Source of the DNA: Cytauxzoon felis
Taxonomy: Eukaryota > Apicomplexa > Aconoidasida > Piroplasmida > Theileriidae
Length of the DNA stretch: 64,000 nucleotides
Direction of reading: 5' to 3'
Assembly (NCBI GenBank): GCA_020283715.1
Contig: JAIQCW010000155.1
Span: forward strand, 1 to 64,000
Made by a program: the position numbers and the translations under genes. This document shows positions 5,037 through 27,469 of this stretch, piece after piece. Position 1 is the first letter of the stretch. Each line of letters opens with the position of its first letter. Under the pieces are notes generated by a model. That model was not told the DNA's origin. It did not search any database and saw nothing but the letters and a program-made list of their open reading frames with translations.

Positions 5037-6627
5037 TTATAATGTATTACGATCATTACCACATAAATCTTCACCATTAACTCTATCAATATGTATCATA
5101 TCATCACGATTATACTTTTTATACATGTACTTTAAAAACTGCTTGTAATGAACCAATAACATATCATTATAATTACCACAATATACAGAACTCGCTGTAT
5201 TATCAATGAAATATATACATAATTGAAATTTAGTACACATGAAGTCCATTCCAACTATCGTTCCACTCGCCTCCACCTGAGGTTACTACCACCGTTCCCA
5301 CTCGGCGTGGAGCCTTCTCTATTTACTTCCCCCTCAAACTCCCATAGATCGTTTTCGGGTTTTCCACTTGAGGTCTCCACTCGAGGTTACATCACTAATT
5401 TCACTACCTTCATTTTTACCTCTGAAATTTGAAGGAAATCCTCAATTTCTGGGGAAACTTATGGAAATATCTCAATGACCATTAAATGAATATCCGATGT
5501 CAATACTTCATTGAAGAGGAATACGTCGATTCTATTCAGTTTGATAAACCTTACTTCAATCCAATATATATTCATTGAGTTATCCTCACTTGAGTGGATT
5601 CCGTCACTTTAGACTTATCTCGTTGAGATTAGGTTTTATAACCTCAAGTGGAAGTGGAACCTGAAAGCGATCTACGGGAGCTGGAAGGGGAAGTAAATAG
5701 AAGAGCTGTCTGCAAGACGACCTCAGGTGGGGAGCTGACGGCAGGACGAAGAGAGGTGGATTGGACCTTGAGTGGAGTATGTATACTTCATATATTATAT
5801 AATCTTACCGGTTGAGTCTTTGAATTGGTCTTGTTGTGCGATACGATTCATGACCCATTCGATATTCTAAATGATAATATATATGGTGTATTGTATCAAA
5901 CCTCTAATGATCTTTTGGTTTTGAATTTATTATTAGATTCTTGGAATTTTATTTTATGATATTTATTATATGTATGTTTATTTTGTTTATTTAGATAATG
6001 ATTAGATTTAATAAAATTATAATTTATTATAGGGATATGTAAATGATTAATTTTTGGTCCATTTAGATATGGTGTATTAAAAATGATATCATTAATATTT
6101 TTATTAGAATATATACCAATATCATATTTAACAACATTATTTAAATTATTTATTAATTTTAATGATTGTTTATTATTAATTTTTGTATTTGTTGTAGATA
6201 TAAAATCATCTGTAATTCTTGTTGTAGTAGTTGTAGATGTATTATTTAAATTATTAATTTGAAATGATATATTATTATCTTGTATTAAATTAAATGTATT
6301 ATTTAATTCATTATCATTTAATCTTATACAATCATTTAATATATCCTCATCATCATCATTATTATAATTAATAAATAAATTCATTAAATATTTATATACT
6401 GTAGATACATCTAATGGTTTATCTAATTCTAAAAACCAAGTACAATCAAATATATTTATATTAGTATTTGTAAATGTAGTAAATGTTTTAACAGTAAAAT
6501 TAATATTATGGTCATGTATATTATTTATTGTTGTTAAATTATTATGTTGTTGTTGATGATAATTTTCTATATCATTATTTATAGGTAAATCTATATATAA
6601 TAATCTTGTATCATTTGTATAATTCAT
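5037..6627 (-). CDS. Asn-rich protein of unknown function
   Basis: Not recognised. Exons 6627-5902, 5866-5809 and 5194-5037 are phase-consistent and give 313 residues. The first 240 residues are dominated by Asn/Ile/Thr low complexity. The last two exons are more ordinary (IEWVMNRIAQQDQFKD; LLVHYKQFLKYMYKKYNRDD) and may be the conserved part. The second intron (5195-5808, 614 bp) is filled by a composite family A element. Its ATG overlaps the stop of the upstream EGF-like gene (ATGA at 6624-6627), so the two might instead be one gene with an unrecognised splice. Confidence 0.5.
5255..5790 (-). mobile_element. Composite family A element with core, copy 2 (intron)
   Basis: A larger relative of the element at 1957-2380, with the core in the opposite orientation. 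The arms are about 5255-5395 (reverse complement of the family A right arm) and 5640-5785 (right arm with 'gcgatctacgggagctgg' and 'gctgtctgcaagacga'). The core at about 5395-5640 aligns over most of its length with the reverse complement of copy 1. It sits wholly inside the 614-bp second intron of the Asn-rich gene. Composition on the + strand is C-rich to its left and G-rich to its right. Confidence 0.65.
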
Positions 6628-8639: not shown

Positions 8640-8740
8640 TCACCTCCATTGAATCGAGGGAGGTATCTCCGATGAATGAAATGAGGGAAGTATCTCCGAG
8701 TGAAACGAGGAATGATAGCACTAAATGAAGTGAAGGATAT
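8640..8740 (+). repeat. Family B repeat fragment (non-coding copy)
   Basis: Contains 'gaatgaaatgagg', 'agtatctccgagtg', 'aaacgaggaatgatagcact' and 'gaagtgaagg', words that recur almost unchanged in the exon copies at 19400-19480 and 23600-23680. It lies about 235 bp upstream of the HECT start codon and is followed by small repeats, so it may be part of that gene's promoter or 5' UTR. Confidence 0.7.
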
Positions 8741-8764
8741 TGGAAATTTATGGTTATTGGATGA

Positions 8765-8962
8765 TGTAAATTTGGATAATTGAAATTTGGAGGATTGAAA
8801 TTCGAATGATTGAAATTCGAATGATATAAACTTAATACCTCTTTATACTTGTTTCCTACTTCATACATCAATTCTCATACTTGTTTCAGTGTGAATTCCA
8901 TACTTTGTATTCAATTCACACTTCAATTCATTCTTCAATTCACAATTTTTCAACACTTCGTG
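8765..8962. repeat. Degenerate short tandem repeats upstream of the HECT gene
   Basis: Two clusters. About 8765-8826 has a 15-17 bp unit ('gattgaaattcgaat'). About 8903-8962 has a 'cttcaattcacac'-type unit. With the family B fragment and the 19-20 bp array they fill the 561-bp gap 8413-8973; no gene or RNA was recognised there. Confidence 0.6.
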
Positions 8963-8973
8963 TGGACATCAAA

Positions 8974-11900
8974 ATGACGGATGATTATGAGATATTTCGT
9001 TTATTGGTGTATACAAAGTATATAACATTGGGTCGTTGTATGTTTGTAGATGATATAGATGAATTGAAGGAGTTTTTGATATTACAAGGATCATATAGAA
9101 CTATATGTAGAGCACAATCTAGGATATATAGAAATAAAAGTGAAGATGTAAATGAATTATATAAAGAATATGATAATTTATCAGAATTATTAAGTAATTT
9201 TGGTATATTTCCAAATACAGATGATGAAAGTACCGGTAGTAGAGATCGTTTAAATATTATTAATGATAATATATTAACTTTAGATATTAAAAGTGATGGT
9301 GGGAAGAAGGATGGAGGAAGGAAGAGTGATGGTGGAAGTAAGGATGGTAGTAATAGTAACATCAATAATAGCATCAGTAATAACATCAGTATCAACAATA
9401 TGGATCGTATATCATTAGAAAAGATAATGAGTAGATACAACACCTCTTCTTCCTTCGATAAAGATAAGATAAATGAAATATTTTTATATAATCATCCATT
9501 AGATGATAATAATAATATAATAATTAAAGATTTAAATAAACCAACATGTATAAATATATTTAATACATTAACATTAGGTGATTTATTACCTGATATAGGT
9601 ACAATTAGTAATGAAATTATGAGATATCGTTTAGAATATAAATCAAGATTATTATTATTGAATGACACTACAACAACAACAACTACAACTACTACAGCAA
9701 CAACAGCAGCAGCAGCAACTACAACAACAACTACTACAACTACTACAGCAACAACAGCAGCAGCAGCAACTACAACAACAACATCTTCTTCTAATAATTT
9801 ATCATATTTAAATATAAATAATATAGAATCATCAAATTATCATTTATTATTTAATAAATTATTAAATAAAATCTATACAAAATTATATAAATTTGATATT
9901 TATACAAATATAAAATTATATAATTTAAATTTAATTAAATTAAATATTATTAATAAAGATATTTATAATATTTTAAAATCATTAATTGATTATATTTTAT
10001 TATTCCCTTGTTATTATGATAAATGGATTAAATTATTATCATTAAATGAATTTAATTATTATAATGAACAATTTTATAATATTAATAGATTATTAGATGT
10101 TATCTTAAATTTCGCCATCAATCATAAATTAAATGATATCATCGATCTAATTATCGATTTCTCATTCTGTCTTGCAATCAGAAATCCTAATGTATGCGAT
10201 ATTTTATATACTTGCCTGAAAATATCCAATGATGTTATACTACCATCATTACTCGAATTCATTGATGAAGACGTGAATGATAATGAACGTCTATATGAAC
10301 GTTATAATGTCATGGAGACTTCTACACCTGATGTCCAATCAAAATCTTCTTCCACCCCACCTGAGGTTACAACCTCTGTTCATCCTGCCGTCAGCTCTTC
10401 TAATTACCTATCCCTAAAGGGTAGAGCCACTCCCAGAGATCGTGGCAGTAGAGAATGTAGTGAAGATGTAACCTCGAGTGGAGAATCCGAGACGATCCAT
10501 GGGAGTCGAGGTGAGGTAAATAAGAAGGCCACCACGGCGAGTGGAAAGGAAGGTGTAGATGGAATGAAGAAGGTAGTGGTTGGACCTCGAGTGGAAGTGG
10601 AATCTGGAAGCGATCTAGGGGAGCTGGAAGGGGAAGTAAATATGAAGGCCACCACGGCGAGTGGAAAGGAAGGTGTAGATGGAATGAAGAAGGTAGTGGT
10701 TGGACCTCGAGTGGAACCCGTAGCTGATCTCAGGGAAGCGAAGGGTGAGGTAAATAGAGGAGGCTGTCTGCAAGACGAAGGAGAAGTTGTAGGTGGAGGT
10801 AGTGATGTAACCTCGAGTGGAAAAAGTGGGGTAACAGAAACTTATGGGGATAAAAAACCTCATAATAATGATAATAAACCCCATAAATCTACTAGTGTTA
10901 TTCAACCCGGAGGAACAGAGAATGGAGGTAAGGACATGACCTCAAGTGGAAGTGGACTACCCGAGAGCGATCTACGGGAGCTTGAGGGGGAACTAAATAG
11001 AAGAGGCACCACGCCTAGTGGAAAGACCTCAGATGTTAATGATAATCATCCTCCTTCGTCGGATAATAATTCTATATGGTTACCTTATTTCCCTACATCA
11101 TATGAGTCTATATGGGACATGCATTATTTATCATTGAATTATCCAGTATTGATAAATTATAATAAGCAGGGTAAGTATGAAAATGTATATACAACGATAC
11201 CGATAATGGGTACATATATAATAAGGATAGATATACAAATGAAGAATGTATTTAATCTTAATAATATATATAATAATAATAATGAATATATATTTAAAAT
11301 TATAATAAAAGGTTATAAAGAATTAATTATATTATCAAATGGACAAATATTAATATTAATAGATGATAAGATTACATTATTTGATTTAGATTATAATAAT
11401 TTATTATATATAGAATTTTTATTTGATAATAATAATATATCAATTTATTTAAATGATTTATCATTTTATAAATTGAATAATGACAATAATAATAATTTAA
11501 TAGAATATAAATTATCTATAGAATATAATAATGATTTAATTAAATTAATACAACATAGTACATTATCACCTACATTACGTAAAGAATTAATTACTAATAA
11601 TATTATGATTGATGCAGCTGACACGGAGGCTGACGCGAATGCGGAAGCGAAGGCGAAGCCGGAGGCGAAGCCGGAGGCGAAGCCGAAGGTTGATGGTGCG
11701 AATGCTGACATTAGTGTTACTAATGCTGCTGATTTTTCTTCTTCTACTGATGCGAATATTACTAATGCTGCTGATTTTTCTTCTACTGATGCGAATATTA
11801 CTAATGCTGCTGATTTTTCTTCTACTGATGCAAATACTACTAATGCTGCTGATTTTTCTTCTTCTACTGATGCGAATATTACTAATGCTGCTGATTTTTC

Positions 11901-14900
11901 TTCTTCTACTGATGCAAATACTACTAATGCTGCTGATTTTTCTTCTACTCCTCCTCCTCCTACACGTCCTCCTCTTCCTCCTTCCCCTCCTCAACTATAT
12001 AATGTATTCAAGAGGCAATTATATATATCAATCATCACATCATCATTACATAATGTCATATCTAGAGTATATAATTCAATTACATTTAATAATAAAAATA
12101 TATATCCATGTACAAAAATATTATTTAAATTTATTAAATTATTATTTAAATTATTAAATTGTACATTAAATATATCAAATATATTAAATAATATAATAAA
12201 TATTAATATTAATATTATTACATTATGGCGTATTATATCAGAAACTATAATATCATTATTATCAACAATTAAAATTATATTATCTATACCATTATATATT
12301 AATAATGATTTACCTATAAATTTTATTGAAATTATATCTAAATGTCTTATTAATTCATTTAAATATAATTGTATATGGATTAATAATAATTATCATCTTA
12401 AATTAGATCTTATTATACTTAAAAATATGATTAATGTCTTTGCATTAAAAATATTATCATCTAATCCTACAATTTCAAAAAATATCTTCTCATTATTATC
12501 ATTAGATATATTATCTGAAATTTTTACATCTATGGTACATACTAATCTCTATTTTACATTCGATCTAGAAATTCTTGCAATTAATAATGCACTTATTAAA
12601 TTAAATGCTAGTGATTGTATCGCTATATTCACTAAAAGAGCCATCTCACATGCTATACTTAAATATTCTAAAAATAAAATTAATAATACCATCATTAATA
12701 GAAATGATAACTATTGGTCGAAATTAATATTTGAATTTCTAGAATATGAAAAAAATTACATCTCAAACTACTCTTATACAACAATCACAAATAATCCAAT
12801 TTGTAATTGCGAACTCGATGCCTCTACCATCTCATTATTAACTCCAAATCTTATCACATGTTTATCTTGCCTCAAAAAATGCTTTAATTTCTGGTCCTCT
12901 ATATCATCACTCAATTATCATCTCAAACAAATGTTCAAAAGCGATATCTACTTCTCTCTACCAAAATCACCACTACTACTCACCAAATTATTACTCAAAC
13001 ATGGTATGATCTTCCTCTGTATCGATGCTACCTCTAATTTAAATAATAATAATAATATCAACCTTAAAAAATACCAATTCGGTGATTGGAAACGGAAAAA
13101 TATACTATCATACAATCCAACCGAGGTCCAATCCAACTCTCTTGGTCCTGCCGTCAGCTCTTCCAATTACCTCCCCGTAAACGGTAATGCCACTCCCGGA
13201 GATCGTGGCGAGGGTTGTGATGGATCATCCATCATGGGAATGATGGAAGATGGTGCTAAGGATATGTTGGATGTAACCTCAAGTGGAAGTGGACTACCCG
13301 TAGCTGATCTCAGGGAAGCGGAGGGGGAAGTAAATAGAGAAGCTGTCTGCAAGACGACCTCAGGTGGAAGTAGGAAGAATAGTGATGTAACCTCGAGTGG
13401 AGTAGATTGGTCATTGAGTGGTTATCAATCGATGTTATATATTCCATCATCATCATCATTGATGAGTGATGATGAGATGTTATTATATTTTAATGTATTA
13501 AAGTGTGATAATATAGAATTTTTTGAGTATATATTGGAGAGATTATTACGATATGATGAGTATATATTAATGATAATAATGGAGAATATAATGGTAATAT
13601 CTAAATATTTTTTAGATGAGTATGGTGTAATATTACATAATTTTATGAATTCATTATCAATAATAGATGTATTATCATATTTTACAGAATTTTTAGAATA
13701 TGAATTAACAATAGAAAATAATAATAAATTAAATAATATATTATTATCATGTATAAATATATTACCATTAATGTTAAAAGTAATAATAAATATATCAAAA
13801 TTAATAAAAAAAATATTCACAATATACAGATTATTATACCCCATTTATGAATTATATAATATTACAATATCATACATTAATAACAATATTTAGTAAATTA
13901 ATAATAAATATATATTATAATTCTAATGAATGTATAAAATTTAATAATAATAATATAATATATGATATAGATATAAATAGATTAAATAATATTAAAGATA
14001 ATAATTGTAAATTACCAAAATGTATAATAAATAATATAAATTATATATTTAATTATAATTATAAAATATGTTATAGTATTAAAAAATTACTTTTATTATT
14101 ACAAGATTTTAAATATGATTATAATAAACAATTATTACAATTTAAATATATTTATGGTATTAATAATTTTATTAATAATATAAATATTAATAATAATTAT
14201 AATTTATTATATATTAAATTAAAATCTAATAATATTTATATATTAAATATTATTAATAATAAATTTATATTCCCATTCCCATCCTATTTTCAACCTATTA
14301 GATTACAATTATTATTATTATTTATACATTTACTCAATCTTAATATCAATAATATTCATATCGCTATCAAAATTGTTAATAATATCATCGTTAAATTACT
14401 CAAAAAAAATTCAATCCATACACCTCATCTTCAATAATCTCAATGATATCGAATATGATGAACTCAGAAGAATCTATCTCAATGATGTACATGATCGATG
14501 CCAATGGATCATCAAACATACACATCCCGGATCATGCTTCAAACCCAAATCTAATCCACCCGAAGTCCAATCCAAATCTTCTTCCACCCCACCTGAAGTC
14601 CAATCATCATCTTCCACTCGCCGTGGTGGCTCTTCCAATTATTCATCTCTAAAGAGTAGAACCACTCCCAGAGATCGTGGTGGTGAGAAGGGTAGTGATG
14701 GTGGTAGAGTTAGTACTAGACCTCGAGTGGAAGTAGAACCTGGAAGCGATCTACGGGAGCTGGAAGGGGAGGTAAATAAGAAGGCTACCACGGCGAGTGG
14801 AAAGGAAGGTGTAGATGGAATGAAGAAGGTAGTGGTTGGACCTCGAGTGGAACCCGTAGCTGATCTCAGGGAAGCGAAGGGTAAGGTAAATAAGAAGGCT

Positions 14901-17900
14901 ACCACGGCGAGTGGAAAGGAAGGTGTAGATGGAATGAAGAAGGTAGTGGTTGGACCTCGAGTGGAACCCGTAGCTGATCTCAGGGAAGCGAAGGGGGAGG
15001 TAAATAGAGAAGCTGACGGCAGGACTGACCTCAAGTGGAGAGGCCGTCTGCAAGACAAGGTAAGGACCTCGGGTGGAGACAAGGTAAGGACTTCGGGTGG
15101 AATGAGGTGTGTTAGGTATAGATCATCATCGGTGATGGATGTTCGTGTGGGTGTTCGTATAAGATCGAATTCTAGTAGGAGTATGAGGTATGAGAGGATG
15201 GAGTATGTTAGGAATGAAGAGTGTGTATATGGTGGTTATGAGATATCGGATATAATACATTTTGTATTGAATGGTCCATCGATAGGTGAGTGTGAGAGGC
15301 AATTGATAAAAGAGAAGGTATCAACATTATGTAAATATGCAATGTTGGGTTGTATTAATGCATTAGTATCGATATTTATAGATATAAAATATACAAGAAC
15401 TAATGATGTAAAATTATTATCAACGGGTATATATAATCCATTAATAGTAGATTTAATGGATAATATGAATTATAATAAATTAATAATTAGTAAAGATTTA
15501 CAAAATACAATTGCATTATATTGGTATATTGTAATAAAGACAATGCGTTCAATAGTATTAAATACATTATCAAATGATATAAATTTACATAATAATATAA
15601 TAATATCATATCAAAAGAGGATATTAGAGACTATATGTGATTGGTATTTAACATGTGGTATAACAAATTTAGATTCTACAAAATATACTAGAGATGTTAC
15701 AAATGCATGGATTAGGATATCATTATCATTTTTTTCATTATTATATTCAACTGGTATAGAACCAATGTGTAATATTAGATATGCATATCCAATATTTCAA
15801 CATATATTATCTATATTACAACCATTACCAATGTCTAAATTAAGAATTGCAATGTCTAGTAATACATGTATATCTACATATACAATTGAAATTGCTGTTG
15901 TTATATTTATTTCTGATAATTTTTCTAAACATTTTAATAATTCTATGGATAATATCTTTCAATGTTATAGGGTACGTAAATATTATATTAAAGATACATT
16001 AAAAATTAATAATGGTACATTATATTTATGGATTAAACGTTCATCTAAATTACCGGAATTTGATACTACTATTGATAATCCTGGTATTGAATTTAAATAT
16101 TTTTGGCATTTTCCTAAAATTGATTCTAAAATCGATTCTAAAAAACCCAATATGCATTTTCAATTATATAATTTTGAAATCCAAATGCCTATTACACCTA
16201 AAGGTACTTGTACATATAGTACTGATAATAATGATATCATCATGTGGAGTATGACTGCACAATATCAAATCATTAATGAAATATCACTTGTTGAAAGAGA
16301 TTCATATACTATGATCTTATATATCAATTTAGGTAATTGTAATGTACCCGTCTATATCTCTACACAAAATATCGTTGTTAATAAAAATAGTGAAATTGAA
16401 TTAGCTCTAGTCAATTATCTAGGTGGTAAATTAGAAATTGAAAGCTTAAATGGTACATGGTCACAAGTCTTGGGATTCACTAGATTTGATGATTTATATT
16501 TAATGAGATGTCATTTTTATCATTTGTTGAAGGTTCTACTCTGGATCTCACTCTCGTCACGACTATATGATGGCAATGGAGGAAGGAAGGGAGTTACAAT
16601 GAACGAAGTGAAGAAGGAAGTTCCAATGACGGAGGTTGTGGAGGTGGAGGGAGTTCCGAACAAAGTGATGGAAGTTCCGATGACGGAAGTTCCGAGTGTA
16701 ACGAGGAATGATGGAATTTCGAGTGTAACGAGGAATGATGGAATTTCGAGTGTAACGAGGAATGAAGTTGAAGGAGGTGTTGGAGGAGGTGTCGGACGAC
16801 GTCTGTCAGCTGAAGATGATACAATGATGAATGGAAATTCATCTCCATCACTTCATTCCTCCTCGCTCCACTCGGACCATCCATCCTCGTTACACTCGGA
16901 ACTTCCGTCATCGGACCATCCATCCTCGTTACACTCGGAACTTCCGTCATCGGACCATCCCTCACTTCGTTCGGATCGTCCTCCTACGTCGGACATACTT
17001 CCTTCATCGCTACGCTCTTTAGGTCCACCTTCATCTCTGATGCATTTATCTTGTTGTTTGATAAAGTTAATTCTATCATCTCTCCGTCGATTATCGGATG
17101 ATTTGCCAAGGTTTAATGAGAATTGTAAGTGTAAGAGTGGTTTGGAGTGTAAAGAGTATGTGAGTATACGTTACTTTTCGAATAATATGGACATGACTTC
17201 ATCTCCAAAGACATTGGATGGATTGATATCTAAGCAGTGTAGTGCATGTTGTTCTAATTTGATTTATAGCCGTGGTGTAGAAAATTATTGGTGTACGGTA
17301 TTGACTAATTTAATTAAGAATATAGATTCGACTAAGCGATATGAGACGGTGTATTATATATTGAATTGTTTATTGACTACTTTTACATTGAGTAGTGAGG
17401 AGATTGATGTATTTTTATCATTACCTCAATTGGGTCCATTATTTTGTGAATTTTTTATATCATGTATTAGGAAATTGGGTCAGGAGTCATTAACGAATTC
17501 TAATTACATAACTGAGATTGATCATGATTATACAGCTGCATTGGCATCTACTACATTGCATGGTATATTTTTATATCGTTGGTTACCTCCATTACAACAT
17601 GCTCCATTGGAGTGTATATATGCTTCGGTGAGGGAGATATTTCATAGTGTGGTGATGAGTAAGGGTTATAAGAAGAATGTATGTAAGGTGATTGATTCTA
17701 ATAATGATCCATTTATAACATTACCTCATTCTGAGCATTTTGTAACGCATAGGGCATCATCAGATTTCGAGGCTGATATAAATGGTAATACATTACATAT
17801 AACAAGGGCTACAAATATGGGTGGAATAGTATTATTTAGGATTCCTACATCTATTGGTACAACAACAACACAGGGTAATGTGAATTTTCTAATATTATCT

Positions 17901-20900
17901 GCTGGTCGTTTTGGTATAACTGTTGCACCTGCTGATTGTATATTTGGTACAGTATCTGATTTATTTGATAGGAATGATGTTGTTGGTTTTATGACATCTA
18001 CATGTCAGCCATTTACAAATGATGTATTTGCTGCAACGATAAATTATAGAGTAAATGATGTATTATCAGCTTATTTTACTGTTGATCAGCAAGAGGATGG
18101 TCAAATATGTTTAAGGACAGAATTATTAATTGCTGGTAATAGTATAGGTTCAGTTTTGGAGGTGATTTATGATCCCATTACACAGAATGATGCTACACGT
18201 AGGATGAGTTTAGCATTTATATTTCAGGATCCATTGACATTAGTACATAATGGTATGACACAGAATGTTGAGAATGTAAATTTTGAACGTCTTGTAACTA
18301 GAGATACACAGAATTCATTTAGAAGTAATACAGCATCAGAGCATTATCCTATAAATACATCAATAGATTTACCACCTGATATAGATGTATCATCATCACA
18401 TCATGAGAGTACATGTTCATCATCTAGGATACAGCCATTATTAACATCAGATGAAGAATTTGTAACAGATGATGAGGATATAAATGTACGTTCATTTTCA
18501 TCATTAGATAATATACAAATATCAGATTGGGATATAAATTATGATATAGTAGAATGTAAAGATGATGGTATATATAAAAATGAGGCATTAAGTTTATGTA
18601 AGGATGATATATGGATGAATATAACAAAGGGTGATAAATGTCTTATAAAATCGGCTATAATATTTGCAGATTCTGTACAAGTATATCAATCAATATTAAT
18701 GGCTAATTTACCATTATTATCTGGATTAAAGAATGAAATTGTATCACAATCATGTAATTCATTTAATAGTTTATATTATTCATTACAAGAAGGACAATTT
18801 AATATTGATGAAATTAGATGTGCATTTAGTTGGTTAGCTGTATTTGGTTGTGATTATGATTCAAATTCATGGAAGGATAAGAAGATATTTACTAGTGATA
18901 AATTAAATTTAATATCAGATTATAGTATACCATGGAATTTAGGATCATCTTCTATAACTAGAGTATGTGTATTTAAATTAGATAATGATCATTGTATTAA
19001 AGTTTTAAAGTCGCTATCATTACTACTTTCTTCACCACATATATCTTCTACTTTATATTATACAGTTAGTAAAGAATCTTCTGCTTCATTTTTATCTGAT
19101 TCACAATTTACTAATAAATCTCTATTGTTGGGTATTGCTACAAAATGTTTATTGACTTGTACTCTAATTGCTAAAGTTATGGCACAGAAGGGTTATTTAT
19201 TGAAGTATGAATCTAAACGTGATCAAAATTATCAATGCATGAAGCAATTGTTTGATGTTGTATATAAATTTATTGAACACTGTAATTTATATGAAGACTT
19301 GAATTTTGATCGTATACGGAAGATTCTCAACCTATTTGGGATATCTGTACCGGAAGGGAAGGACGATGTTCCGACGAAGGAGGAACGTCCGACGAACGAA
19401 GTGAGGAGGGAAGTATCTCCTACGAATGAAATGAGGAGGGATAGCACTGAACGAAGTGAAGTGAGGACGAATATTCCGAGTGGAACGAGGAATGAAGATC
19501 GAGGACGTGTTGGAAGAGGTGTCGGACGACATCTGGAAGTTGGAGGACATCTGTCAGCTGATGATGATACAATGATGAATTTGCATTTATCTCCATCTCT
19601 TCATTCCTCATCCTCCTCCTTCATCAATCCATCATCGCTTCGCTCGGAATTTCCTTCATCTTCATTTCATTCGGATCGTCCCTCACTTCACTTGGAACTT
19701 ACCTCAATTCATTCAGATCTTCGTCCTTCCCAACTGCGTTCAGATCGTCACTCACTTCGTTCAGAACTTCCCTCCTCATTTCATTCGGATCGTCGTCCCT
19801 CGCTTCACTCGGATCGTCCCTCACTACGTTCGGAACTTCCTCCTTCGGATAAACCTTCATTAATATCAATTGATGATTTATGGATGATGGTATACAAGAG
19901 TGTATTGACCTCCAGTATATCATTAAATCGTGTGAATATAGGTTTTGAATCTTCTCCAAAATCACTGGAAGATCTTCAACATAATACAAGGATGTTTTCA
20001 ACATGTGATTATACATACCATTGTGGTAGTAGGATACCTACATTTCGTCGTCATATAATGAGGAGATCTTTATACTATAAATTAACAAAACATGATATTT
20101 ATGATCTTTTATCCACTTTATTACTATTAAGTCCACAATTTTTTATAGATTATATTAAAGATGGTAAAGTTGTTGAAATTGTTAGATTATTCCGCTGCTC
20201 TATCGTACATTATACCAAATCCTATGATTTCAACGCAATTGATTATTGGAATTGGACAAATGCTTCATCATTCAATAATGATTTAAAACATAGACTTGAT
20301 CTATACTCCAAAATCGTCGATCCATCCTATGGATGGCAAAGACTTATCTATAACTTTAATCAAGATAATATATCTCAACACGAGGTTACAACATCCTCGC
20401 ATTCTCCTGCAGAGAGCTCTCCACCTGAGGTTACCTCTAACAACGGTCCAACCTCTCTTCGTCTTGCAGACAGCTCTTCCAATTACCTATCCCTGAAGGG
20501 TAATGCCACTCCCAGAGATCGTGGCGAAATACCTGGAAGCGATCTACGGGAGCTGGAAGGGGAACTAAATAGAGGAGGCTGTCTGCAAGACGAAGATAAG
20601 GTTGTAACCTCAAGTGGAATGAAGTGTAGTACTGGACCTCGAGTGGAACCCGCAGCTGATCTCAGGGAAGCGGAGGGTAAGGTAAATAAGAGAGCCACCA
20701 CGGCAGTGGGAAGTGTAGATGGAGTTAGTACTGGACCTCGAGTGGAACCCGAGAGCGATCTATGGGAGTTTGAGGGGGAGGTAAATAGAGAAGCTGTCTG
20801 CAAGACGAAGAGAGGTGGAAAAGAGAGTAGTACTGACTTCAGGTGGATGACATCGAGTGGATTATGTATAAATGATATATTGGAAATATATTATACAGAG

Positions 20901-23900
20901 TTTGTATTTAGTTTTATAATGTCATTATATGATAAGAGATATAATAAGTTGATACATAATATACATTGGATATTGGATATGTTTTTAAGGCATCCATTAT
21001 GTCCTATAATGATACGTGAATATTTTTGTACATATAGGACATGGTTAATATTACATACATTAATGTTGAATAGTATAGCATTACCATGTAAATTAGCAAC
21101 AGTAGCATCAAGATTATCAATATATATAATATCAAAATTAAATAAAGAACAATTAAATGAAATGATAAATATAATACATTATTGTGGTACAAGTTCATAT
21201 CATCGTATATTAGCTGTATGTCATTTTTATGGTACATTAGAATTAGATACATTTACTAATTTAGATTTAAAAAGACATGATCATTCAACAAAATTATCTA
21301 CAGCTATTATTATACATCAATTTATATCTACAATGACTATATTATTTGAATATTATCCTAATTTAACATTTAAACCTGATGAATTTACTAATATTGTTAA
21401 TTATTTATATCTTGCTAAAAATAATTATTATTCTATACAATTTATTAAACAAATATTAATGATACCACAATCATTAAATAATATTATTAATATACCCGAA
21501 AAAAATGTTAATACATTTATTACTACTACATTTAATAAATTTAATTATATCTTAATCTCATTCAAATTTAAAGGTAAAAAAAAACGTATCATATTCTCAT
21601 TAGATGAATACTTTACCAAAATCTTTAAAGAATTATATTTTATATCCAAATTCAATACCATACTCTATCCTAATACATACTTTTATCCACAATTCAATAC
21701 CTTCAAAATCAATAAAATCAATCCATCCAATCACTTTATCAAAATTGGATTCATACTTTTACCCGAAAATAATATACACGAGGTCCAATCATCATCTTCC
21801 ACTCGGCGTGGAGCCTCTTCCAATTACTTCCCCGTAAACGGTAATGCCACTCCCGGAGATCGTGGCGAAGGTGGAGGTGGAGTAGAAGGTAGAGATAATA
21901 CTGGACCTCGAGTGGAACCCGAGAGCGATCCACGGGAGCTTGAGGGGGAAGTAAATAAGAAGGCCACCACGGCAGTGGGAAGTGTAGATGGAGTTAGTAC
22001 TGGACCTCGAGTGGAACCCGCAGCTGATCTCAGGGAAGCGGAGGGACAACTAAATAGAGAAGGCTGTCTGCAAGACGAAAAGAGTTCGAATGGACCTCAG
22101 GTGGAAAGCTCTCTGCAAGAGGAAGATGTGGTTATAACTTCAAGTGGAAGTATGGAAGGATTAATGAATGATGATATATTATATTCATCATATGATCCAT
22201 CGATTATAGTAACATCTACATCGGTATATAAGTTATTTAATCAATCTGAGATGATATTGATTGATCGTGATGATGAGATTATATGGAGATGTGATGGTAT
22301 AGATTATGTATATAGAAAGAATGGTCGTGTAATTGATCGTCCATTTATAATGCTTGTATGTGATGAGGATATGGATAATAAATCAGGGGAAGATGGTAAA
22401 TTAAATAATTCTAATTCATTTGATACATACAAGGAGAATATAACTATTGAACAGGTAGTTGATATACGTGCATCTAATTTCTATTATAAAATTGAGCAGC
22501 ATGAAAAAATTTCATGGACTAGGCATGAAAATGTTCTAATATGTAATAAGGTACATCGTTCGGGTATTTCTATATCAAATTTAGAAGATGTTAAAATATC
22601 AAATGAATCTGTTTTATATTTAAATCGTAATAATGAAATTAATAGGATTAATGGAACAACTTATTCACCACAGGCATATGTAAAGAAGAGTTTACCTTTT
22701 ACTGTTGGAATCCATGTTAATGTAGTTGATGGATTTTATTTTGGTATTTCATGGAATAATACTAGAATACTATGGCATAGTAATGGAAATGTACATGTTC
22801 CATTAGAGGCTCCATTTTATCTCTATAGTCATACTGGTGAAATGATAGTTAAGGGTGTACCATATAATAGGGGTGATTATATTGCAATACAATTTGTACC
22901 ATCAATATGCTCATTATTATTCCATTTAAATAACAAGATATCTATGGTTTTAGATTTTAAGAAATTCTATACATGTAGTTATTTGAAATTTAATCCTATC
23001 CAAGATTCTATACATCAATATAAGGATTTACAATCGAATTTGATTGATTGTATAGTATCGGATGATATTAAAACACTTGTGTCTATGATAGATTATATGA
23101 AAATGGAGGGTATAGCTAAATTTATTTTGGAAACACCACAATATGATGATAGAAATAAAGATTGTCTATTATATAATCCTATTTATATAGCATCATCACT
23201 TGGGAAATTAAGTATATTAAAGGAATTCTCACTTGTACCAGGCTTAAATTTTGATGCTACTAGTGGTAATGATTTGGAAACACCTTTGATGGCTGCTGTT
23301 AAAAATTGTCATGTACATACGATATCATATCTTGTTTGTGTTGAATCGGTTGATTTAAATGCAAAGGATGTTTTTGGAAATACTTCAATTTTAAAATCTG
23401 TATCAATTGATCTTAATATTACTCTATTACTTGTCGAACTTGGAGCAGACTTGTATCAAACGAACCATAATGGCATGAATGTTTTAGATTTAATATTCAC
23501 ACTAGGTGATAAATCCGAACGATACTACAAACTCATAAACTACCTGAAGTTGTCGGAAGGGAGGAACGAGGATCTGAAGAGCGTAGCGATGAAGGATCCG
23601 ACGAACGAAGTGAGGAGGGACGAAGTTCCGAGTGAAACGAGGAATGATAGCACTGAACGAAGTGAAGTGATGATGGAATGTCCGAATGAAATGAGGATGG
23701 ATGAAGTTCCCAAGAATAATGTACCAAGGGATGAAGCATCGAAGTATGAAGCAATGAATCTAGTGTCAAATACTGAGGAAATACCGTCCAATACTCATGT
23801 AATGAATCTAGTGTCAAATACTGAGGAAATACCGTCCAATACTCATGTAATGAATCTAGTGTCAAATACTGAGGAAATACCGTCCAATACTCATGTAATG

Positions 23901-26900
23901 AATCTAGTGTCAAATACTGAGGAAATACCGTCCAATACTCATGTAATGAATCTAGTGTCAAATACTGAGGAAATACCGTCCAATACTCATGTAGAGAATC
24001 TAGTGTCAAATACTGAAAACATTCCCTTCGATGAGGTAAATGTGGGGAGAAAAAAATTATCTTCTAGATATAATACTCTTCATAATAATATTTGGCCTGG
24101 TTTATTAGCGAATTCGAGTATAATAATATCATCTACATCTGTATCAATTGATACATCATCATTTACACTAGTGAATTATATTATTGATGATAGAAATATA
24201 TTAAATTCTAGTGCAGATTATATAGAAAAGAGTATAAAAACATCAACATCAAATATAGATGATAATATATTAATTATAGCATCGAAATTAGAGAAGATTC
24301 GTAGAAGTATATTAGTACATATATCAATATTATTAAATAATTTAACACATTTATTAGATCCAGTAGATAAAGGTTGTTATGATTTAAAAGATTTAATATT
24401 AAATTATATATATGGATTTATAGAAGATATAATATTACATGAAAAATGGTCAAAAAATAAAATATTACGTAGATTTGTAAGAATATCAAAAAAATATTGT
24501 ACAAGAATAATAACATATAAACAACGTTTAAAATTAATAATATCATTTTTATATTATGAACGTTCATTAATGCAAATAAAATTATTAAATGGTGGTAGTG
24601 GTATAAAATTATCAAATTTACAATTATATAATCGTATGTTATCAAATGAAAATTTATTTAATTATAAATATTGTAATTATACATTTAATTATTTAATAAC
24701 AACATATTGTGATTCATTATTTGATATATTTAAAGAAAAATTACCTATTGATTATAAAATAAATGATATACCAATATATAATGATGATTATTTATTATTA
24801 AATATTAATACATGTGTATATTTATTTGATCAAATACGTTTAGAAATGAATATTGAAATGACTAATGAATTAGATTATACTATTAGATGTTTATATGATT
24901 TATTAAATAATTCTGGTTCTATATTAAGATTAATTGTATCTATTATTACTAATTGTTATAATAAAATTATATTACAAGGTTATTTACCACCATTAGGTTC
25001 ATCATTATGGAATGGTATTAATATATCATTAGATCAAATTTTATCATCTATATCTAAAATACGTAATATTATTATTAATAATATTAAACGATTTATACCT
25101 AATCAATTTGAATTATTTATATTATTACAACATCTTTATAAAATTATTGATAATCTTGGATTAAAATATACTATTAAATTAAATGATTATAATAACTTCT
25201 CTAAACTTAAATCTATTATACAATTACTTAATGTTAATGTTAAAAATTTCGAATCTCAAAACTCATTAACTATACTCAATCTGTCAAATATCAATTCTAA
25301 TCATATATACCCATATTATGATAATAATAATAACCAATTATTCATCGCATTCTGCTTCGTACTCATCGCCGATCGTATCGAACTACTCGATAATATCAAT
25401 GATATCTTCAAAGTCGTTGTACCCATCATCAGTACCATACTCAATCAACCCATCGTCGAATATAAACCCATCAAGAATCTCATACTCAATAACAATAAAT
25501 TCTTCAATACATACACAAAAACACATTCGAAATCTCCACCCGAAGTCCAATCCAACTCTTCTTCCACTCGAGGTCCTGCCGTCAGCTCTTCCAATTACCT
25601 CCCCGTAAACGGCAGAGCCACTCCCGGAGATCGTGGTGAAGGTAGTGAGGATGTAACCTCAAGTGGAGTATCCGAGACAATCTATGGGAGTCGAGGTGAG
25701 GTAAATAGAGAGGCCACCACGGCTAGTGGAATGAAGAGTAGTACTGGACCTCAAGTGGAACCCGTAGCTGATCTCAGGGAAGCGGAGGGACAACTAAATA
25801 GAAGAAGCTGTCTGCAAGACGACCTCAGGTGGAACGGCGAGTGGAAAGAGAATGTTGATAGGACCTCGAATGTAGAATTGCCGTTATTATCTCAGATGTC
25901 TATGGGATTGAGTATTGGTCCTCCTGATCAGGTGATACATTACAGTACGTATAATAGGAATAGGAATTTGATAAAGAAGACGGTTGTGAATGACATGTAT
26001 AATAAGATATATCAATCATTGCAATCATTTACTGGTGATCGTCCATATTTTTCTGTAAAGGTTGACCGTGGTATATCATCGACATCATCGAATTTGAATC
26101 ATACATTATGGTATCAGAGTTCGAATCAGATATTGAATAGTAATCCGAATATATTGCGTGCGAAGAATAATCAACGTCCATTTATGGTGATATTTAAGGG
26201 TGAGGGATCTACAGATTTTGGTGGTCCATTTCAGGAGTTTTTGACGTGTTTATCAAATGAGATTATGGATCCATTGACATCGAATCCAAAGATGAATAGT
26301 GTTGATGGAGCATCAATTAGATGTTCTAATTTGATTAATAATCATGGTAGTCATAGGGATACTGTTTTATTTAAATTTGCTCAACCTATTCATCCAATGT
26401 CATATTTATCTAATTTTAATGAATGGGATACTCATAATTATGTTATAAAATGTACTGATTTAGGATTATCATGTTCATCTGGTTGTTGTAGTTCTATTCC
26501 TTTAATGGCTACTGAAGATTGTTCTAATAATTATGATTTTAGACGCGGATGTAGATGTGGTGGTAGTGAACTTTATAGTGAGGTTTGTAATCAAAATACA
26601 CCTATAGAATTATCAATGTATGAAGCCCTAGGTAGGATATTTGCAATGTGTGCTTGTATGCTAAATCCTCTTAATATCGCAGTTAATCCTATTATATGGA
26701 AGAAAATGTTAGGATATAATTTAACGATTAATGATTTAGCTGATTATGATAAAATTTCAGTTGACATGTTATGGAAACTTTCATCAGATAGTAAAGATAT
26801 ATTATCTGATGGTTTAACATTTAATTTAGAATCAAATGAAGGTATACCTATAGATTTAATTCATGAAGGTTCAAATATCTCTGTTAATAAGGATAATCTA

Positions 26901-27469
26901 GAAGATTTTATTAAATTGGCATCAATATTTAGAGCTACTCAAGCTGATTCCGGATGTACTTGGCTTACTAGAGGATTTAATTCTGTTATTCCAATTGGTA
27001 GATTAAGGATGTTATTAGATTATAAATCATTTGAATTTATGATCTGTGGTGATTCCGTTATTGATTTAGGTGTTCTTAGAGCACATACAATTTCAACATC
27101 AATGACATTAAAAAAAGATCTATTTGATGTACTAAGTAGATTTAATAATGATATGCTGAAATTATTTCTTAGATTTGTTAGTGGAAGATCAAGATTACCG
27201 CATCCACAATCTGAATGGTGTATGTATGTTGAATATACACAGAATGTAAGTTGGAATGTTATAATTTTCAGTCATTGCATCTATAGAATGATTCTAATGT
27301 AGATTCAAGATTGCCAACTTCGGCAACATGTAGTTTCCGTTTATTAATGCCACGTTATTCTAGCCGAGAAATAATGTACAAGAGATTAATTTATGCTATA
27401 GAAAATTGTATAGTGATTGATTTAGATGCTCCAATAATACATGACGAAATGCAATTGAGATCATCATAA
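8974..27469 (+). CDS. Giant HECT E3 ubiquitin ligase with SPRY-like and ankyrin domains
   Basis: About 6,100 residues. Start ATG 8974 (MTDDYEIFRLLVYTKY). Reading frame 1 runs to about 13750-13810, frame 2 to about 14405, frame 3 to 27245; a 41-bp intron (27246-27286) leads to the last exon (27287-27469). Visible domains: Thr/Ala and NAADFSS repeats, lectin/SPRY-like regions (about 17690-18290 and 22640-22990), ankyrin repeats (about 23160-23510) and a C-terminal HECT domain from about 26160 (FKGEGSTDFGGPFQEF; GFNSVIPIGRLRMLLD). The final exon supplies LPTSATCSFRLLMPRYSS, whose Cys forms the ubiquitin thioester. At least six family A and three family B palindromic repeats are inserted in frame between domains. 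The two frame changes lie at A8 tracts; that this is one gene is inferred. The CDS overlaps POP4 by six bases. Confidence 0.75.
9665..9790 (+). repeat. Thr/Ala homopolymer-like coding repeat
   Basis: Trinucleotide stretch of aca/act and gca codons inside the HECT gene. It encodes two runs of about ten Thr with interspersed Ala blocks, apparently duplicated as a unit of about 57 bp, ending in Ser-Ser-Ser. Confidence 0.9.
10320..11035 (+). repeat. Family A palindromic element, in-frame in HECT exon (copy A3)
   Basis: Left arm (Pro-Ala-Val-Ser-Ser-Ser-Asn-Tyr, then 'actcccagagatcgtggc') from about 10325. It is followed by a duplicated 'ggccaccacggcgagtggaa' module and several right arms (PRVEPVADLREAKGEVN type) up to about 11035. 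The reading frame is identical to the other exon copies. The longest copy in the window. Confidence 0.85.
11610..11990 (+). repeat. KPEA and TNAADFSSSTDANI coding tandem repeats
   Basis: First an Ala/Lys/Glu/Pro block of 'gcgaagccggag' units (about 11640-11690). Then six units of 39-42 bp encoding TNAADFSS(S)TDAN(I/T), followed by a Pro-rich stretch. Within the HECT gene, between a lectin-like region and a helical region. Confidence 0.9.
13115..13410 (+). repeat. Family A palindromic element, in-frame (copy A4)
   Basis: A compact copy. The left arm is PAVSSSNYLPVNGNATPGDRG (nt about 13148-13207) and the right arm VADLREAEGEVNREAVCKT (nt about 13297-13355), ending in 'gatgtaacctcgagtggag'. 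It interrupts the HECT gene between C-rich coding sequence on the left and G-rich coding sequence on the right. Confidence 0.85.
13806..13813 (+). other. A8 tract at first frame change in the HECT gene
   Basis: The frame open from 8974 and the frame open to 14437 both run through this 8-A tract. Reading one A fewer would join them. The alternative is an intron 13751-13829 (GTATAA..ATACAG) that also joins them in phase. The sequence alone does not decide. Confidence 0.5.
14402..14409 (+). other. A8 tract at second frame change in the HECT gene
   Basis: Frames 2 and 3 overlap here, and one A fewer would join them. No intron with matching phase was found nearby, so an indel, slippage or assembly error is the simplest reading. 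Confidence 0.5.
14545..15105 (+). repeat. Family A palindromic element, in-frame (copy A5)
   Basis: A left arm with 'ggtggctcttccaattattcatc' and 'actcccagagatcgtggtgg'. A direct duplication of about 129 bp follows (two almost identical KKATTASGKEGVDGMKKVVV modules at about 14776 and 14890). Then the right arm and 'gctgacggcagga'. In frame in the HECT gene. Confidence 0.85.
16575..17035 (+). repeat. Family B palindromic element, in-frame (copy B1)
   Basis: A purine-rich left half (about 16577-16800; 'gaacgaagtgaag', 'gttccgagtgtaacgaggaatg') mirrors a pyrimidine-rich right half (about 16850-17030; 'tcctcgttacactcggaact', 'cacttcgttcggatcgtcc'), its imperfect reverse complement. Protein: EV/TRND-rich, then LHSELPSSDHPS-rich. 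In frame in the HECT gene. Confidence 0.85.
19355..19855 (+). repeat. Family B palindromic element, in-frame (copy B2)
   Basis: Same structure as B1. The left half is purine-rich ('gacgaacgaagtgagg', 'cactgaacgaagtgaag'). The centre is conserved with B1: a Gly-rich stretch, Ser-Ala-Asp/Glu-Asp-Asp-Thr-Met-Met-Asn, Ser-Pro-Ser-Leu-His. The right half has many 'cggatcgtccctcacttcgttcgg' units. In frame in the HECT gene. Confidence 0.85.
20375..20865 (+). repeat. Family A palindromic element, in-frame (copy A6)
   Basis: Left arm with 'cgtcttgcagacagctcttcc', 'aattacctatccctgaag' and 'cactcccagagatcgtggc'. Right arms with 'gaagcgatctacgggagctgg', 'gctgtctgcaagacga' and 'cccgcagctgatctcaggga'. 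The left arm is a good reverse complement of the right arm, so a long imperfect hairpin is possible. Confidence 0.85.
21775..22165 (+). repeat. Family A palindromic element, in-frame (copy A7)
   Basis: Left arm SSNYFPVNGNATPGDRGEG. Right arms ESDPRELEGEVN and AADLREAEGQLNREGCLQDE. Starts with 'gaggtccaatcatcatcttcc' and ends with 'aacttcaagtggaag'. In frame in the HECT gene between a helical region and a SPRY-like region. Confidence 0.85.
23555..23750 (+). repeat. Family B half-element, in-frame (copy B3)
   Basis: Only the purine-rich half is present ('acgaacgaagtgaggaggga', 'gttccgagtgaaacgaggaa', 'cactgaacgaagtgaagtga'). It encodes TNEVRRDEVPSETRNDSTER and related text, and runs straight into the 48-bp tandem array. 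Confidence 0.8.
23754..24019 (+). repeat. 48-bp coding tandem repeat, five units plus a diverged sixth
   Basis: Five units encoding MNLVSNTEEIPSNTHV, apparently identical at the DNA level, then a diverged unit ENLVSNTENIPFDEV. Near-perfect identity implies recent expansion. Confidence 0.95.
25525..25880 (+). repeat. Family A palindromic element, in-frame (copy A8)
   Basis: Left arm PAVSSSNYLPVNGRATPGDRG; right arm PQVEPVADLREAEGQLNRRSCL. It lies just before the HECT domain, with C-rich codons on the left (about 25340-25530) and G-rich codons on the right (from about 25880). The last copy seen in the window. Confidence 0.85.

Follow-up and report, generated by a model that had tools for sequence, protein, structure and literature searches.

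In Cytauxzoon felis, a dispersed and partly palindromic DNA element lies in frame in a giant HECT ubiquitin-ligase gene and in many other open frames

The window, as the whole stretch of 64,000 nucleotides analysed here is called (contig JAIQCW010000155.1, positions 1 to 64,000), comes from Cytauxzoon felis, a blood parasite of cats. Two of its stop-to-stop open frames together represent one giant HECT ubiquitin-ligase gene, with the HECT domain at 26595-27206 (Pfam HECT, E 1.6e-34). Both frames carry palindromic inserts of two families, A and B, whose lengths are given below beside those of the matching stretch in 11 orthologues.

8836-13893, + strand: N-terminal HECT-gene open frame, 1685 aa, stop to stop; hosts A3 and A4; aligns with piroplasm orthologues
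10317-11050, + strand: A3, in frame; about 245 residues versus 8-11 in 11 orthologues
13109-13402, + strand: A4, in frame; about 97 residues versus 0-17 in 11 orthologues
14247-27302, + strand: C-terminal HECT-gene open frame, 4351 aa, stop to stop; hosts A5-A8 and B1-B3; aligns with piroplasm orthologues
14545-15125, + strand: A5, in frame; about 193 residues versus 0-88 in 11 orthologues (poorly conserved stretch)
16580-17010, + strand: B1, family B, in frame; about 150 residues versus 14-15 in 11 orthologues
19358-19860, + strand: B2, family B, in frame; about 164 residues versus 0-40 in 11 orthologues
20373-20870, + strand: A6, in frame; about 150 residues versus 1-6 in 11 orthologues
21770-22160, + strand: A7, in frame; about 130 residues versus 34-45 in 11 orthologues (poorly conserved stretch)
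23580-23760, + strand: B3, family B; about 160 residues including a tandem repeat versus 1-7 in 11 orthologues
25530-25876, + strand: A8, in frame, upstream of the HECT domain; about 113 residues versus 0-17 in 11 orthologues

A first-pass annotation of this DNA had reported six GC-rich family A copies in the HECT exons, all open and in one frame, with arms related as reverse complements. The six copies are confirmed and also share one orientation, and their arms are indeed related as reverse complements, being detected as inverted repeats. The left arm of these copies approximates SSNYLPVNGNATPGDRG and the right arm reads VADLREAEGEVN or ESDLRELEGEVN; A3 comprises a left arm and four right-arm units, one of them degenerate. 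The three in-frame inserts of family B are an addition to that account. The arms of B1 (16646-16714 and 16916-16984) are 87% complementary, B2 is read in the same frame as B1 and shares with it the centre VGxGVGRxLSAxDDTMMN (judged by eye), and B3 has a single arm, after which a 48-nt tandem repeat runs to about 24080. All six A and all three B inserts are absent from all 11 HECT orthologues, which come from ten piroplasm species and contain no arm peptide. Orthologues with the same inserts, and no other copies in the genome, had been named in advance as the observation that would count against an inserted element; the sites proposed for that comparison are empty in 11/11, and by estimate the genome holds thousands of family A copies.

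Family A is also present in noncoding DNA of the window, at three places.

1-180, + strand: family A copy in noncoding DNA, truncated at the window edge, adjoining a Prp4-like exon
1946-2400, no strand assigned: noncoding family A copy of the long type, with an AT-rich centre between two right-type arms, in an intron of a minus-strand lactate/malate-dehydrogenase-like gene
5230-5790, no strand assigned: noncoding family A copy of the long type, its centre in the opposite orientation to that of 1946-2400, probably intergenic

The earlier assignment of these copies to introns of three other genes stands for 1946-2400, which is flanked by LDH-like exons recognised by eye, and is likely for 1-180, but 5230-5790 is more likely intergenic because a ferredoxin-reductase-like gene seems to end before it. 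The expectation that every copy would form a long hairpin survives only in part: among four sequences folded as DNA, A6 (z -4.1), the noncoding copy at 5230-5790 (z -9.8) and B1 (z -12.2) fold beyond shuffles, whereas A4 (z -0.9) is no different from them.

Family A is best explained as a DNA element of C. felis that is dispersed and partly palindromic. Its short form of about 250 nt consists of a left and a right arm, its long form of about 460 nt has two right-type arms around an AT-rich centre, and the arms are modular, such that several right-arm units can stand in a row. The ends are 12-nt inverted repeats, TCCACCTGAGGT...ACCTCAGGTGGA, recognisable on both sides with at most 2 mismatches each in 33 copies, exonic copies having been excluded beforehand from this end analysis (the 63 copies of at least 150 nt include exonic ones). 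Sampling of 12 stretches (20 were intended, but eight contigs were too short) gave 64 copies occupying 18.3 of 114.6 kb, or about 16%. The genome search proposed in the first-pass annotation returned far more copies than chance, on many contigs; a single 1-kb query had 126 DNA matches, several of which can fall within one copy. Two protein searches of the genome placed family A in at least 128 open frames of at least 300 codons, frames being distinguished by contig and length and the counts being lower bounds, as 150 of 3875 and 150 of 3296 candidates were scored and the lists do not show every match. One noncoding copy, between exons on another contig, is 91% identical to A8 over 168 nt, and a BEACH-domain gene is split by family A elements. 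Exonic copies are depleted, at 10 of 64 sampled copies versus 66% coding DNA, and noncoding copies occur on both strands. Neither Pfam, searched with three inserts, nor Rfam, searched with the elements of three stretches, gave a match.

All 16 exonic copies, drawn from seven sources (six stretches and the window), have the same orientation and frame, where exons outside Pfam-supported frames were called from open-frame length rather than transcripts, the copies of the surface antigen cf76 do not belong to the 16, one weak and doubtful match (L024:7087-7167, 81 nt, GC 0.33) was left out, and one copy (L016:9706) exceeds its stretch and was seen with a single coding flank. Pairs of left and right arm (L-R pairs) are free of stops, 60-nt flanks included, in 14/14 exonic versus 4/32 noncoding cases; because openness partly defined what was called exonic, the independent evidence in this comparison is the shared frame. 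When noncoding pairs were read in six frames the canonical frame was open in 12/32 and the other five in 5/160. The filter is thus strong and not absolute, since one antisense frame is open in 5/14 exonic pairs, and the uniform framing is best read as survivorship, given that only one of the six frames of the element is often open. A protein search confined to the canonical frame by construction placed 78 of the 150 matches listed in frames of at least 300 codons, with no stop in any, and 69 in frames of at most 200 codons. In two of the 14 exonic pairs the L-R distance is not divisible by three, because a degenerate unit supplies the first right-arm match there. Changes at second codon positions are fewer in exonic copies (42/197) than in noncoding ones (123/400; p 0.015, in a test picked after the table had been seen), and third positions show no difference between the two groups (p 0.66). 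As the exonic copies sit in an orientation and frame that is often translatable, protein segments appear to have been added to many proteins.

In the portion of the literature covered by our search, no earlier description of this element family was found. Rickettsia palindromic elements (RPEs), as presented in the part of the source available to us (PMC10969869), are about 150 bp long and fall into ten families, with nearly half in ORFs of R. conorii; they too are short palindromic repeats that occur outside genes and in frame in unrelated ORFs, to which they add a conserved peptide. Family A is likewise a palindromic repeat, of varying hairpin strength, in frame in unrelated protein genes, and 16/16 exonic copies carry the conserved peptide in a fixed frame. 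By analogy, family A works like RPEs, in a eukaryote. The likeness drawn in the first-pass annotation is retained for the mode of working but does not extend to kinship in sequence: when bacterial and archaeal contigs were scanned once, with a single insert as query, 162 pattern matches came up, 0 of them confirmed by tblastn. Bacterial or phage origin was considered and found no support in the searches. Unlike RPEs, family A inhabits a eukaryotic nuclear genome with introns, is longer and modular, makes up a large part of the sampled DNA (about 16%) and has a smaller exonic share (10/64). In its shortness, inverted ends, very high copy number and presence in introns and between genes it resembles MITEs or foldback elements; the terminal inverted repeats are present, but neither a target-site duplication nor a partner transposase (DDE_3 was searched) was found. 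The consulted part of a survey that had C. felis among its 64 apicomplexan genomes (PMC9141347) reports no class II elements and zero transposable elements in C. felis, and states that MITE candidates were discarded as likely false positives.

The reading that we favour, to which as a whole we give a probability of about 80%, is that the element arrived in introns, in exons and in the DNA between genes after the C. felis lineage had diverged from the other piroplasms compared, and that non-autonomous spread, purging and the translation of survivors account for its present distribution. It would have spread as a MITE- or foldback-like element, the enzymes having been lost or gone unrecognised; purging would have removed insertions that put any of the other five readings into an exon, or that fell within domains; the surviving exonic copies would be translated as Ser/Gly/Glu-rich linkers and may then have grown and varied through module duplication. 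Transposition proper is not demonstrated, because no target-site duplication is seen at the 33 copies with recognisable ends (k 3-8, not above shuffled pairs; the ends are ragged and erosion is possible), a DDE_3 family search of the genome gave no match, and the sole reverse transcriptase match is one RVT_1-bearing frame of 1010 codons. For a LINE- or SINE-like nature of the element, which was considered too, this frame would be at most a candidate partner. It is conceivable, if rather unlikely, that nothing transposed and that copies spread and changed by template switching, foldback extension or ectopic gene conversion aided by the inverted arms. The absent target-site duplication, the modular arms with right-arm units in series, the very stable hairpin from family B arms and the 96% identity of A3 and A5 across 174 nt within the same HECT gene all fit such a process, which has to contend with copies in many separate frames on many contigs. 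A direct test of conversion was also negative: gene conversion as the source of the cf76 variant allele was rejected, as the best genomic match of that allele is cf76's own copy 1.

Introners, for example those of the alveolate Amoebophrya (in the part of PMC7789003 consulted), are dispersed repeats with inverted motifs that lie in introns, and element-filled gaps between open frames, along with an acceptor-like TCTTGCAG in the left arm and a donor-like GAGGTAAAT in the right (by eye), prompted the idea that family A might be of this kind. It was rejected on the fumarase gene, read by eye, in which each of four elements is flanked by intron ends of tens of nt, with GT and AG outside the element. 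Because they sit in GT-AG introns that retain their own ends, these intron copies are not introners, whose edges create splice sites, and other members stay in exons. That the exonic copies are nevertheless introns or exitrons removed from mRNA is very improbable, common as the same DNA is in introns: they are all open in one frame where noncoding copies mostly are not, and the proposed check on retention came out for retention in one gene, cf76, where published cDNA fragment sizes equal genomic distances and both in-frame copies are kept in mRNA. Slightly less credible still is that an old repeat within proteins, or a domain moved by shuffling, was multiplied as coding sequence, the noncoding copies being decayed gene fragments. 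The element consensus does encode a conserved peptide, and L-R distances are multiples of three in 16/32 noncoding pairs, but the repeat is missing from the 11 orthologues, three inserts lack a Pfam match, noncoding copies lie within introns and on both strands, and among database proteins of 281-894 aa, where the C. felis proteome is apparently absent, only cf76 records match. 454 assemblies can be misled by repeats, yet an assembly artefact or contamination is scarcely believable, given that the cf76 frame is identical at 722/722 residues to a GenBank C. felis protein containing both copies and that P0046, another cf76 record in which 4 sequences are clustered, has a variant copy 1 and an identical copy 2.

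Between the two cf76 allele groups 43 of 61 differing columns fall within copy 1, although this copy makes up 95 of 723 residues; variation in a 30-bp tandem repeat of cf76, known from published work, concerns the C-terminal fragment, which also contains copy 2. That exonic copies drive the diversification of proteins and antigens, supplying ready-made readable linker peptides to many proteins, is a tentative and somewhat doubtful extension; if true, diversification of this sort would operate in a phylum regarded as almost devoid of mobile DNA, and in the antigen one copy is where the two allele groups differ most. cf76 is a vaccine candidate, and the peptide that occurs twice in it is shared with many other C. 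felis open frames, so that antibodies to this peptide may lack cf76 specificity. C. felis gene models and repeat surveys would need revision. More broadly, in-frame palindromic insertion is known from Rickettsia, and here it is met in a eukaryote and on a large scale; the genome, that of a parasite, is compact and has been reported to lack transposable elements. The case makes testable how dispersed DNA can become translated parts of many proteins, and whether antigens are diversified by such parts.

The genome that contains the window comprises 8.62 Mb in 181 contigs, the window being contig 93; for the published C. felis genome, the accessible portion of PMC3748084 gives 361 contigs, 9.1 Mb and a GC content of 31.8%. 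The giant HECT ubiquitin ligase is a single gene made up of two stop-to-stop frames (8836-13893 and 14247-27302), and its closest orthologue in a search of 5.8 billion proteins is that of Theileria equi (66% identity over the C-terminal query region). The six family-A copies that the first-pass annotation placed in coding sequence, A3-A8, do lie within these frames, accounting for 15% of their sequence. The interruption at 13893-14247 is either an intron or an assembly frameshift, and the gene also holds in-frame tandem repeats with units of 48 nt (23705-24080, adjoining the family B insert B3) and about 39-42 nt (11679-11999). A3 and A5 share a 174-nt segment at 96% identity (10583-10756 and 14719-14892), a higher identity than in any other match listed for either insert, and this may, judged from sequence, reflect recent duplication or conversion within the gene.

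Both frames were aligned with 11 orthologues from ten piroplasm species, with block lengths counted in all 11 and insert flanks inspected in four (T. equi, B. bigemina, T. orientalis and B. bovis). The six family-A positions, together with three of family B, a second palindromic in-frame family, occupy 97-245 residues in C. felis versus 0-88 in the orthologues, and none of seven arm-peptide motifs was found in any of these proteins. On both length and motif the family-A inserts are thus absent from 11 of 11 orthologues, in the comparison with relatives that had been proposed earlier, and the three family B insertions are likewise absent. The sites of A3, A4, A6, A8, B1 and B3 are clean and empty, with at most 17 residues in each orthologue. 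A5, A7 and B2 lie in poorly conserved stretches where orthologue lengths reach 88, 45 and 40 residues, respectively, and the comparison there therefore gives a large excess and not a clean gap; flank alignment is weak to the right of A4 and A5 and to the left of A7. The B1 hairpin is stronger than those of the family-A copies folded. With B1 as query, the genome gave 20 matches, of which three fall within the HECT gene; the 115-kb sample contained two short ones.

Family B sites in the window
16580-17010: B1, HECT gene insert
19358-19860: B2, HECT gene insert
23580-23760: B3, HECT gene insert
8640-8745: further family B site

For one gene, that of the surface antigen and vaccine candidate cf76, published cDNA data indicate that exonic copies are kept in mRNA. 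The published start primer has a single exact match in the genome, the open frame is identical to the database C. felis cf76 protein at 722 of 722 residues, and that protein matches the family-A element region at 100%.

Family-A copies in cf76 (contig 114, stretches L025/L026)
nt 529-814: copy 1, codons about 177-271
nt 1704-1980: copy 2, codons about 569-660

In the accessible portion of PMC3748084, Tarigo et al. (2013) describe amplifying cf76 from cDNA; their protocol included DNase treatment and an 18S control against carried-over DNA, and the internal primers fall within copy 1. The sizes stated for the cDNA fragments, 720, 828 and 675 bp, agree exactly with the spans 1-720, 682-1509 and 1492-2166 in the genome, and therefore both copies are present in the mRNA of this one gene, with the limit that the stated sizes may be design values, since the full-length product is given as 2172 bp, the ORF length, versus a 2166 bp genomic span of the outer primers (the gap corresponds to a second start codon plus the stop). 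The portions of the published cf76 papers available, including PMC3748084, make no mention of this repeat family.

An alignment of two cf76 records shows 61 differing columns. These are confined to residues 119-298, with 43 inside copy 1; copy 2 is identical between the records. Gene conversion from another copy was considered as the source of the variant and rejected, the best genomic match being cf76 copy 1 itself, and no donor was found among the genomic matches scored. The C-terminal fragment, in which copy 2 sits, is described in the same paper as carrying linear epitopes bound by antibodies and a 30-bp tandem repeat, variable in one of 11 samples (PMC3748084); the epitopes may lie inside the element or elsewhere in the fragment. 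As far as the available text of a later study goes, cf76 vaccination gave no antibody response and cf76 was judged less immunogenic than c88 (PMC10058880).

Beyond these genes, a sample of 12 stretches, totalling 114.6 kb and placed at set positions along contigs 4-20, contained 64 family-A copies, or 16% of its DNA, from which bootstrapping over the stretches estimates 3600-6000 copies genome-wide. Density is very uneven, the window being poorer (9 copies per 64 kb) and having none over the 38 kb of 26000-64000, whereas the sample averages about 0.56 per kb. Two layouts occur. The shorter, of about 250 nt, is a left arm followed by a right arm; in the long type, of about 460 nt, two facing right-type arms flank an AT-rich centre that is conserved and roughly 250 nt in length. 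No frame is open in any of the ten copies of the long type that were noted.

Long-type family-A copies
window, 1946-2400
window, 5230-5790
L015, 1959-2428
L015, 8018-8478
L017, 284-758
L018, 1517-1975
L018, 3947-4427
L019, 2890-3338
L019, 5815-6279
L020, 9352-9811

Four of the seven fumarase introns, read by eye from translation, carry one family-A element each, and in all four the intron's own GT and AG termini lie outside that element; family A thus entered pre-existing introns, at least in this gene. In the BEACH-domain gene, elements separate open frames encoding consecutive protein parts. The ends of family A are 12-nt inverted repeats. Dispersal by transposition is inferred rather than demonstrated, since no target-site duplication was seen at 33 testable copies, no DDE_3 transposase match was found in the genome, the reverse-transcriptase domain RVT_1 matched one frame only (match at G000:C56:73693-74436, in a frame of 1010 codons; telomerase or a retroelement), and a transposable element survey, in its accessible portion, reports none in C. 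felis, MITE candidates in Apicomplexa having been removed (PMC9141347). Family A resembles Rickettsia palindromic elements in its mode of working, but no sequence kinship was detected, and no published description of it was found in the available portions of the open-licence literature, including C. felis and mobilome papers.

A canonical-frame protein search gave a two-humped distribution: among the 150 matches listed, 78 lie in frames of at least 300 codons and all of these are free of stops, another 69 are in frames no longer than 200 codons, and three fall between. Stops occur in 14 of the 150. Two queries combined place family A, among the matches listed, in at least 128 distinct frames of at least 300 codons on 90 contigs, with Sua5, Saf4/Yju2, CPW-WPC, TPR and FAINT proteins among the hosts identified by Pfam. 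The Sua5 insert (residues about 240-340) falls between aligned segments, the interval being ~195 residues versus ~40 in the solved homologue 6f87, with the second and third segments weak individually. Long open frames contain 16 of the 73 copies (9 window, 64 sample), ten of the 16 from the sample, and all 16 share orientation and frame. In the six-frame test, noncoding pairs are open between the arm cores in 12 of 32 cases in the canonical frame versus 5 of 160 in the other five. Because the canonical frame alone is often open, an exon insertion that survives would nearly always have the same orientation and frame, and this bias suffices for the uniform framing, which makes a targeting mechanism unnecessary.
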